A stretch of 55,386 nucleotides of DNA from an uncultured Clostridia bacterium (GTDB lineage Bacteria; Bacillota; Clostridia; Oscillospirales; Ruminococcaceae). Below, in pieces: positions 41,067 through 42,515 of this stretch. The position numbers and the translations under genes were made by a program. The notes below the pieces were generated by a model. It saw only the letters and a program-made list of their open reading frames with translations, was not told where the DNA came from and searched no databases. Each line of letters starts with the position of its first letter. The stretch's first letter is position 1. The DNA lies in assembly GCA_947589215.1 (NCBI GenBank), contig CANQCL010000014.1, positions 1-55,386 of the forward strand, read 5' to 3'.

Positions 41067-41360
41067 TTATTTTATGTTTTCTATTAATCTTATAACCAGT
41101 CTTTTTTGTTCCTTGTTAAGCTGCGAAAATTTTGATATTAGTTGATTTTGTTCGCTTTTTTCTTTATCCTCTAAGAAAAATTCTGATAATGAAATGTTAA
41201 ATGCGTCGCAAATGTTTTCTAATGTTGGTATAGTTGGGAGCGTGTTACGTACAAACATATTTGATATAGTGGATTGAGAAAGCTTGCTTTCTTTAGCGAG
41301 TTTGTATTCTGTCCAATCGGCTTTTTCCATCAGGCTTTTTATTCTACCCAATACATCCAA
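41067..41360 (-). CDS. XRE-family transcriptional regulator
   Basis: A small DNA-binding protein (97 aa from this TTG) with an HTH_XRE domain at about 7-62 (YKLAKESKLSQSTISNMF is helix-turn-helix), followed by a short helical tail (SKFSQLNKEQKRLVIRLIE) of the kind used for dimerisation. TTG 41360 follows AGAGGTG by 6 nt; the longer frame from 41432 has no clear site. It is divergent from the candidate RNA genes at 41.5-42.3 kb, whose promoters it may control, but this is only positional. Confidence 0.8.
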   Translation of the reverse strand: MDVLGRIKSLMEKADWTEYKLAKESKLSQSTISNMFVRNTLPTIPTLENICDAFNISLSEFFLEDKEKSEQNQLISKFSQLNKEQKRLVIRLIENIK

Positions 41361-41462
41361 GCTTAACACCTCTGTTTTCCTTGTATTTGCGTTTATCTTT
41401 GTAATTAAAAGTCTATTAGTATTATAAAACATTTTTTTTAATAAATATATTGCTCAGATGTA

Positions 41463-41491
41463 TTGACAAACACACTCTTTTGAGTTATAAT
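41463..41491 (+). promoter_or_regulatory. Consensus sigma-A promoter of candidate small RNA 1
   Basis: TTGACA (41463-41468) and TATAAT (41486-41491) with a 17-bp spacer, a perfect match. No coding sequence follows on this strand for 9 kb, so it should drive a non-coding or very small product. A weak palindrome CTATAT/ATATAG lies at 41505-41524, around the expected start of transcription. Confidence 0.8.
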
Positions 41492-41497
41492 AATAAA

Positions 41498-41666
41498 AAA
41501 TATCCTATATTTAGAATAATATAGAAAAACAAGGAAAAAACAAATGCGCAATTGACTTATGAAAGCACTATTTAATTATTAAACATGCTTTCTTCCTAAA
41601 TATTCCTATAAATGCCCGAAAGGGCGAATAACGCTTGAATCGGGGATGGTTCAAGCGTTATTTTTT
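41498..41666 (+). ncRNA. Candidate small structured RNA 1 (about 170 nt)
   Basis: A transcript from the perfect promoter at 41463 would end at a strong terminator (stem 41627-41639 with 41650-41662, then TTTTTT). Between them lie a two-part helix whose 3' arms are contiguous (41532-41536 with 41593-41597; 41561-41567 with 41586-41592) and a GCCC-GAAA-GGGC tetraloop hairpin (41614-41625). Two minute frames exist (ATG at 41544, three codons; ATG at 41559, seven codons MKALFNY); the first follows AAGGAA, which the outer helix would sequester. Function unknown; regulator, leader or peptide RNA are all possible. Confidence 0.55.
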
Positions 41667-41792
41667 AATGAAATTAATATAAAATTTTGTGAGTAATATG
41701 TGAGTAATAATAGTTTTTTTGGTTTAATATACAATAAGTCGGCATATATTGTTGAAATTTGACAAATCGTCCAAAAAATATTGTTATTAATT

Positions 41793-41833
41793 GTACAAAC
41801 TAAATAAAAATAGCAATTGATTACTGTTTGTAC
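41793..41833. repeat. Inverted repeat adjoining the promoter of candidate RNA 2
   Basis: GTACAAAC (41793-41800) and GTTTGTAC (41826-41833) with a 25-bp spacer; the right half touches the -35 hexamer at 41834. It is a reasonable operator for a dimeric repressor such as the adjacent XRE protein, or a small hairpin. Confidence 0.45.
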
Positions 41834-41863
41834 TTGACAGAAACTTTAATTTTGTTATATAAT
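41834..41863 (+). promoter_or_regulatory. Sigma-A promoter of candidate RNA 2
   Basis: TTGACA (41834-41839) and TATAAT (41858-41863) with an 18-bp spacer. Both hexamers are perfect. Nothing coding lies downstream on this strand before the terminator at 42246. Confidence 0.75.
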
Positions 41864-41869
41864 GTATAT

Positions 41870-42280
41870 ATCCCATAATCGTAAAACAAGTTGAGACTAT
41901 TCTGAAAACATCGAATTACAATTCCATAATTTGATTGCATTCAATATGACTCTAATTTAGGTACATATTGAAGTGTTTTATTTGGCGGGTTTAGGTATTT
42001 CTGTCATTTATTAATTTGACAGTCGTAGTTTGTGAGATAATTGGTTAATTATTAAGTAAGAAATTTAAAAATTATCAATTAGATTGCAATGTTAAGGGAT
42101 ATTTTAGGAAGAATGTTTTATTTGTTTGTGTAATAAAAAAGTATCTTAAATCCGCCAATAAAACACGATTAAATTATAAGAACGGTAATTCTTTATGATT
42201 TAATAATTCAAATAGTTTGTTTTTAATTATCAGATATGTTTATATAAAAAAACCCCGACGCTTAAGTTCGGGGTTTTTAT
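41870..42280 (+). ncRNA. Candidate large multi-branched RNA 2 (about 400 nt)
   Basis: Between the promoter and the terminator at 42246-42280 the sequence can form nested helices: end-pairing 41883-41889 with 42217-42223, 41896-41901 with 42211-42216, and 41913-41918 with 42204-42209. Inside are a perfect 9-bp hairpin (41940-41948 with 41964-41972), a 20-bp helix with one bulge and one G-U (41973-41993 with 42147-42166), an internal 6-bp hairpin (42001-42006 with 42017-42022) and a 15-bp hairpin with one U-G (42168-42182 with 42189-42203). Hairpins abut with 0-1 nt gaps. Wobble pairs fit only the plus strand. Long reading frames are absent. It does not contain the conserved cores of tmRNA, RNase P RNA, SRP RNA or 6S RNA that I can recognise. 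Confidence 0.55.
42246..42280. terminator. Bidirectional terminator between candidate RNA 2 and acpP
   Basis: AAAAACCCCGA with TCGGGGTTTTT arms (42248-42258 with 42268-42278). On the minus strand it follows acpP by a few nucleotides; on the plus strand it ends the candidate RNA. Confidence 0.9.
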
Positions 42281-42284
42281 TAAA

Positions 42285-42515
42285 TTAATTATCTATTTCT
42301 TCAATAAACTTAACAATATCGCCGACGGTTTTCACATTTTCAACTTCTTCATCAGGAATTTTAATATCAAATTCTTCTTCAAGCGACATAATCAAATCGA
42401 CAACGTCGAGAGAATCTGCACCTAAATCCTCTGTAATGGAAGCTTCCAATGTAACCTCGTCTTCGTCAACATCAAGCTGATCTACGATAATATCCTTTAC
42501 CTTATCAAATACCAT
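42285..42515 (-). CDS. acpP: Acyl carrier protein
   Basis: Carries growing acyl chains on a 4'-phosphopantetheine arm. The 76-residue acidic helical protein has the attachment site Ser35 in [19 protein letters not shown] lies before ATG. It is the last gene of the fatty-acid cluster, 84 nt after accA, whereas in many Firmicutes it follows fabH near the front. Confidence 0.96.

Follow-up and report, generated by a model that had tools for sequence, protein, structure and literature searches.

Based on searches of Rfam, conserved synteny, compensatory base changes and its non-repetitive nature, we propose that a stretch of about 410 nt beside acpP, here termed RNA1, is probably an undescribed non-coding RNA gene, which bears out the suggestion of an earlier note that this DNA holds a lineage-specific class of structured RNA not described before. 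It lies in a window of 55,386 nt (the whole stretch of DNA analysed, positions 1 to 55,386 of contig CANQCL010000014.1, assembly GCA_947589215.1, from an uncultured Clostridia bacterium of the Ruminococcaceae). By its sequence traits RNA1 is a new family of a familiar sort, a predicted intergenic structured RNA gene, and it fits no named family. As an explanation of the whole we favor, with somewhat better than even confidence, a clade-specific stand-alone non-coding RNA gene whose strands would be bound in trans by a partner. RNA1 would thus be one among many orphan bacterial structured RNAs, adding a well-bounded family for which promoter, terminator, phylogeny and a working covariance model are at hand, and would offer a clear case, within the reach of our searches, of a structured RNA gene limited to part of one genus.

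Anatomy of the predicted RNA1 gene

The putative gene (Table 1) opens with a promoter in which the -35 and -10 hexamers are perfect and separated by an 18-bp spacer, just as the earlier note had described it (TTGACA at 41834-41839 and TATAAT at 41858-41863, 12/12 positions), and all nine homologues, judged from their DNA, bear TTGACA-17/18-TATAAT at the matching place. The start of the predicted transcript was set from the -10 box and its end was placed at the terminator. The observation that about 400 nt here are free of genes also stands, with no ORF of at least 50 aa listed between 41432 and 42285. Downstream, the strong terminator claimed before was recovered as a stem of CCCCGA (42253-42258) with TCGGGG (42268-42273) followed by five T residues; a terminator stem is present in 9/9 homologues, the patterns for G000 and G013 having been written to fit. 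An automatic terminator scan reported zero sites at the RNA1 terminator because it takes loops of 3-8 nt and the loop here has 9. Across the homologues the length of RNA1 varies freely from 336 to 505 nt, and that of the core including the P1 arms from 170 to 267 nt; as seen in the alignments, conservation is found at the promoter, the P1 arms, the interior strand and the terminator.

The placement of RNA1 "before acpP" had to be corrected, as it runs convergently towards acpP, which is coded on the minus strand, and is not an acpP leader. Likewise, we rejected a cis-regulatory leader or riboswitch, since the next downstream gene, acpP, lies on the other strand both here and in the loci of the relatives.

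Table 1. Positions of the predicted RNA1 gene, its helices and strands, and the features upstream of it (window coordinates)
Feature	Position	Strand	Remarks
RNA2, second candidate transcript, neighbour of RNA1	41463..41668	+	12/12 promoter match
RNA2 promoter	41463-41491	+	
RNA2 hairpin GCCCGAAAGGGC		+	
RNA2 terminator stem	41627-41662	+	
Upstream double site, GTCGGCATA with TTTGACAAA at a distance of 20 bp	41738..41766	.	possible regulator site
RNA1 promoter TTGACA-18-TATAAT	41834..41863	+	12/12 hexamer match
RNA1 predicted transcript, ~410 nt	41870..42279	+	z -6.7; 9 homologues including its own genome's
P0, 9-bp hairpin immediately 5' of P1	41940..41972	+	
P1 5' arm GTGTTTTATTTGGCGGGTTTAGGTAT	41973..41998	+	in 9/9 homologues with at most 3 mismatches
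P2 hairpin CTGTCA...TGACAG	42001..42022	+	paired cells 88.6% on A4, 71.4% on A1; compensatory changes
Junction strand TCGTAGTTTG	42023..42032	+	from alignments and motif table
P3 GATAATT...AATTATC	42036..42076	+	paired cells 91.5%; both sides changed in two pairs
Conserved interior strand GTTAAGGGATATTTTAGGAAGAATGTTTTATTTGTTTG with weak hairpin P4	42091..42128	+	from alignments
P1 3' arm TATCTTAAATCCGCCAATAAAACAC	42142..42166	+	in 9/9 homologues with at most 4 mismatches
P5 hairpin, 15 pairs, one bulge	42168..42204	+	predicted fold
RNA1 intrinsic terminator	42246..42279	+	shared with convergent acpP; terminator on either strand

Predicted fold and compensatory changes

The center of the predicted structure is P1, a helix of UUUAUUUGGCGGAUUU with AAAUCCGCCNNAUAAA, which encloses P2, the junction strand UUAGUUUGGU, P3 and a conserved strand with the weak hairpin P4. 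The 20-bp helix with one bulge that had been noticed at 41973-41993 with 42147-42166 was found at that place, and compensatory changes in P1 fall mainly in the inner part of the helix. The consensus of the junction strand, AGTTTGG, is exact in six of the nine homologues, the copy of the window's own genome not being among them, and the interior strand is reduced to fragments in G003 and G013.

The predicted fold of 41870-42235 reaches -90.5 kcal/mol as against -61.1 kcal/mol (sd 4.4) for shuffled sequences (z -6.7), with 0/100 shuffles as good. For the homologues, each scored against 60 shuffles with the terminator left out, plus-strand z scores are -6.31 in G000, -4.33 in G012, -6.30 in G009, -5.17 in G010, -1.50 in G005, -1.19 in G011, -1.84 in G004, -3.91 in G013 and -1.93 in G003. 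Minus-strand values across the nine range from -6.6 to -0.6, and the minus strand folds more stably than the plus strand in G010, G013 and, marginally, G011, which weakens any argument on strand from folding alone; the strand of the predicted gene is set by its promoter and terminator.

Compensatory changes were scored on two alignments, A4, which was fitted to the model, and A1, a plain MAFFT alignment that was not fitted to structure and on which a hand-written structure lacking P4 and the outer P1 pairs was scored. Each takes seven of the nine homologues, G003 and G013 being left out with their unalignable interiors. A4 has 91.6% of its cells paired and 13 of them compensatory, where shuffling gives a mean of 4.8 (sd 1.8) and slid structures give 1-4; on A1, 84.4% pair and the compensatory cells number 15 against 6.2 (sd 2.0) when shuffled, with 2-7 for slid structures. 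Counting pairs with double changes gives a less striking result than counting cells (7 vs 3.8 on A4, reached by 9/500 shuffles; 8 vs 5.1 on A1, reached by 31/500). The compensatory changes found on both alignments lie in P1-P3, with none in P4, where zero pairs on A4 show a change on both sides. As a prediction from seven sequences, the covariation of P1-P3 is good but not final evidence.

The elements outside this core are more labile. A perfect 9-bp hairpin had been reported just 5' of P1, and P0 is indeed formed by TTCAATATG (41940-41948) with CATATTGAA (41964-41972); it is strong in G000, G012 and G009, and the remaining six homologues have a weaker or different hairpin there, or none. The 15-bp hairpin noticed on the other side of P1 also exists, with 15 pairs and one bulge, except that its end as folded is 42204 and not 42203. 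P5 is strong in G000; at its place, hairpins of other sequence are predicted in G003 (-13.2) and G012 (-10.0), both counted as strong, with a weaker one in G009 (-5.9), and those in the other five are weak. Thus, both hairpins (41940-41972 and 42168-42204) are present in the window but are not kept across the clade, being well kept only in near relatives. Pairing of the two transcript ends (41883-41901 with 42211-42223), also claimed before, did not hold up: it appears in the predicted fold, but 6/40 shuffles pair as much. Pairing from end to end is predicted in 5/9 homologues, at differing places and with 21-27 expected pairs; the shuffles matching it, out of 40, number 6 in G000, 2 in G010, 0 in G005, 3 in G011 and 3 in G004. 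In the remaining four homologues it falls below the shuffle mean. We did not accept it as a conserved feature, the predicted pairing being suggestive in G005 and G010.

Distribution among relatives and comparison with known RNAs

Of the 15 genus genomes, nine keep RNA1 with its synteny, counting that of the window. A DNA search gave matches in 10/15 (again including its own), some of them only to promoter or terminator pieces, and the covariance model R1 finds RNA1 in G000, G004, G005, G009, G010, G011 and G012. In G013 it was recovered by a second covariance model (19 chosen sources) at an E value of 3.7e-4; since a reverse-strand echo in the same search reaches 0.0012, the score alone is weak and it is position that decides the case. 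G003, where no model match is convincing, was counted because it has the promoter, the terminator and the two P1 arms at the expected position. Both copies have diverged so far that alignment is confined to P1, the flanks and short stretches of motif. In all nine loci RNA1 is adjoined by a convergent acpP, and nudix and spoVG lie beyond it in 8/8 loci tested by tblastn.

G006 has a matching neighbourhood without RNA1, which indicates that RNA1 is not needed by every member of the clade. The more distant G001, G002, G007, G008 and G014 have no RNA1 in the approximately 1000 nt beside acpP. Genome-wide searches of the six RNA1-lacking genomes with R1 gave one match in G007 (E 0.76), one in G014 (E 0.49) and none up to E 1 in the other four. 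In a midpoint-rooted tree of accA-acpP DNA, G013 is the outermost branch of the RNA1 clade, with G006 beside it (support 0.65 and 0.86); on this topology, loss of RNA1 in G006 would be the simpler, if weakly supported, reading. Over 81 loci (the window and 80 acpP loci), R1 gave nine matches up to E 1, which are the seven core members and two reverse-strand echoes of the palindromic P1. In a search of the family, 3/297 genomes matched, namely two of the genus and G209 (E 0.007), the last of which was rejected because its match, as we read it, falls on the last part of a protein-coding gene and on the terminator of that gene; the family set holds five genus genomes (G000, G001, G005, G008, G013), of which both that are visible to R1 were recovered. 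A search of the order matched 1/394 genomes, the window's own. Both searches used strict filters, with 9 and 7 candidates scored per genome, through which a diverged homologue could escape; as far as they reach, RNA1 appears restricted to the genus.

No Rfam family reaches its gathering score at RNA1; in the window as a whole, only a tRNA (2202-2285) does. When 41700-42300 was searched permissively, up to E 10, there were 27 weaker matches, of which 26 fall on the terminator hairpin; the lowest E value among the 27, 0.0029, belongs to a 5'-UTR family on the minus strand (18.5 bits vs a gathering score of 88), and the top score, 28.6 bits vs 60, to sRNA ncr1015 at 42174-42283. 6S RNA, tmRNA and RNase P RNA resemble RNA1 in size range or in having a long closing helix. 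The earlier reading that RNA1 lacks the cores of tmRNA, RNase P, SRP and 6S RNA agrees with the searches, none of the four being among the Rfam matches at RNA1, strong or weak, and each was rejected as an identity for it. Moreover, unlike RNA1, which sits on contig 14, the 6S RNA (RF00013) of this genome lies on contig 17, its tmRNA (RF00023) on contig 11 (E 1.4e-71) and a class B RNase P RNA candidate, below the cut-off, on contig 6 (E 2.2e-11).

Among the larger structured RNAs, ROOL and GOLLD are described in PMC12286853 as phage- or prophage-encoded RNAs of unknown function, often near tRNA islands, with many GOLLD members exceeding 800 nt; the same source states that ROOL, GOLLD and OLE have Rfam profiles. 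RNA1 is like these three in its predicted extended multi-helix fold and unlike ROOL and GOLLD, as portrayed there, in its fixed chromosomal place. We rejected all three identities, none being among the Rfam matches to RNA1, strong or weak. PMC8040213 reports 3161 intergenic structured-RNA candidates of 27-219 bp from one human-gut screen, a number which makes a new orphan family unsurprising by itself. RNA1 is akin to those candidates, as presented there, in that intergenic conservation and covariation serve as evidence and function is mostly unknown; it differs in its longer predicted transcript, a comparison made by size range alone.

Intergenic trans-acting sRNAs commonly carry their own promoter and intrinsic terminator. 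To the extent that it can be read from sequence, RNA1 has such sRNA-gene traits, with its own promoter, its own terminator and no conserved reading frame. SpoX and SpoY of Clostridioides difficile are intergenic trans-acting sRNAs according to PMC10267692; like RNAs of that type, as characterized there, RNA1 is a predicted regulatory RNA without a protein product, and unlike them it has a length of 336-505 nt, a long closing helix and a branched core. Among the titles and abstract openings listed in searches of the PMC literature, none describes RNA1.

Alternative readings, candidate partners and upstream sites

In the reading that we favor, the consensus sigma-70-type promoter would drive strong transcription of RNA1, which would fold as drawn, with P1 closing a junction that carries P2 and P3, and would be ended by the intrinsic terminator. 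The long P1 would hold open the conserved strands, with the consensus AGUUUGG and GUUUUGGGAUAAUUURGGAAGAAUG, and these might then engage a partner in trans, for which pairing to other RNAs is likelier than catalysis. Such a partner, if found, would show how lineage-specific RNAs take on work.

The convergent orientation and the terminator shared with acpP in the RNA1-bearing loci would also suit an antisense or transcription-interference regulator of acpP, in which read-through past that terminator covers the acpP mRNA. We regard this as unlikely, given that the conserved terminator stands between the two genes and that acpP occurs in G006 and five other genomes without a neighbouring RNA1; further, the longest perfect complement between the acpP mRNA and RNA1 without its terminator is 9 nt in the window's own genome, a length reached by 122/200 random sequences, and antisense action by complementarity was rejected as being at chance level. 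That the main product could instead be a short peptide, from a dual-function or small-protein mRNA, is hinted at by a frame through P1 that opens with GTG in six of the nine homologues and reads FYLA[G/D] or near it, and by a short frame after GGGAAGA reading MFSCS* in three homologues (by eye, in the alignment). However, no ORF of at least 20 aa is common to the nine, in G005, G011 and G003 the P1 frame lacks a start codon and runs into a stop within 2-8 codons, and in the other homologues its length (12-28) and its sequence vary past the shared first residues, as would be expected from the P1 DNA by itself, so that we deem a peptide product very unlikely. The least likely of the readings, to our mind, is a mobile-element relic in which P1 represents terminal inverted repeats round a variable interior and the promoter is incidental. 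The P1 arms are indeed among the best-conserved sequence while the core varies in length, as such a relic would have it, but the interior helices P2 and P3 covary and the place of RNA1 relative to promoter, terminator and acpP is constant in nine genomes. RNA1 is moreover a single copy in its own genome, whose only four other matches are weak and short (25-29 nt, E 0.03-0.63), none of them covering a P1 arm and one overlapping the first 10 nt of the P1 3' arm; the dispersed MITE family that the earlier note had wished checked is thus ruled out on copy number. Plasmids searched with RNA1 gave zero matches and phages only one, of 49 nt at 82% in a Pelagibacter phage, and a 20-letter interior pattern had zero exact matches in IMG/VR. 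A 17-letter P1 pattern occurs on 26 viral stretches; these do not carry RNA1, model R2 giving there a single match up to E 1, at E 0.23. As none of the plasmid, phage and IMG/VR searches gave RNA1, we rejected a phage or plasmid origin.

A further reading takes the neighbouring candidate transcript RNA2 as a target, with RNA1 acting as a sponge or regulator and pairing, via UUUAGGAAGAA and UUCUUCCUAAA, both with RNA2 and with a 3' element of other mRNAs. Counterparts of RNA2 with a promoter exist at the locus in G009, G012 and G004, as does one without a promoter match in G011; its hairpin is absent at the locus in G003, G005, G010, G013 and G006. In G000, G012 and G009, UUCUUCCUAAA of RNA2 is perfectly complementary over 11-12 nt to the RNA1 interior strand, and the RNA2 3' part recurs elsewhere in G004, G005, G009, G010 and G011, both of which favor pairing. 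Against it, match length alone is weak, as the fraction of 300 random sequences reaching it is 0.133 for G000, 0.017 for G012 and 0.057 for G009, the longest match falls elsewhere in G011 and G004, RNA2 is missing or changed in several genomes, and the window's own genome holds a single copy of it. RNA duplex energies gave no information, as the duplexes extended along the greater part of both RNAs. On balance we consider this pairing improbable. Still less probable, in our estimate, is that RNA1 founds a new class of multibranch RNA, with a closing helix that is conserved in sequence and presents two conserved strands to a clade-shared partner, possibly the UUCUUCC-bearing RNA2 and a related mRNA 3' element, under a sporulation-type regulator; if true, that class would constitute a clade-specific RNA hub and not a simple antisense sRNA. 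For the stand-alone gene that we prefer, the RNA2 complement and the upstream double site may serve as leads only on function.

The 3' part of RNA2 is itself dispersed in relatives: G004, G005, G010 and G011 each have several copies and G009 has two, and the window's own genome has one; in L152, L161, L162 and L163 the copies sit, by eye, after an apparent reading-frame end, and the element looks like a kind of shared terminator. Beside RNA2 lies a Cro/C1-type HTH gene (41067-41432, minus strand), which turned up in just two of the 8 loci tested, those of G000 and G009.

The approximately 95 bp upstream of the RNA1 promoter (41738-41833) are conserved in the homologues. In 8/9 homologues they contain a TTGACA-like site, located at -74 to -76 relative to the -35 box, and in six of the nine a TCGACA-like site at -94/-95, the first site of the window's own genome missing the pattern. 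Mean column conservation is 0.69 at the double site, 0.51 further upstream and 0.76 in the 66 bp up to the promoter, so that the double site is not distinct from its downstream side. The pair resembles degenerate 0A boxes, for which PMC7643835 gives TGNCGAA, but matches to the 0A box with at most one mismatch number 554 in the window vs 541 expected. Spo0A is present in 15/15 genomes of the genus; that it might regulate RNA1 is only a guess. As a separate observation, matches to the Spo0A C-terminal domain number nine in G001 and six in G002 vs one in each of the nine RNA1-bearing genomes.
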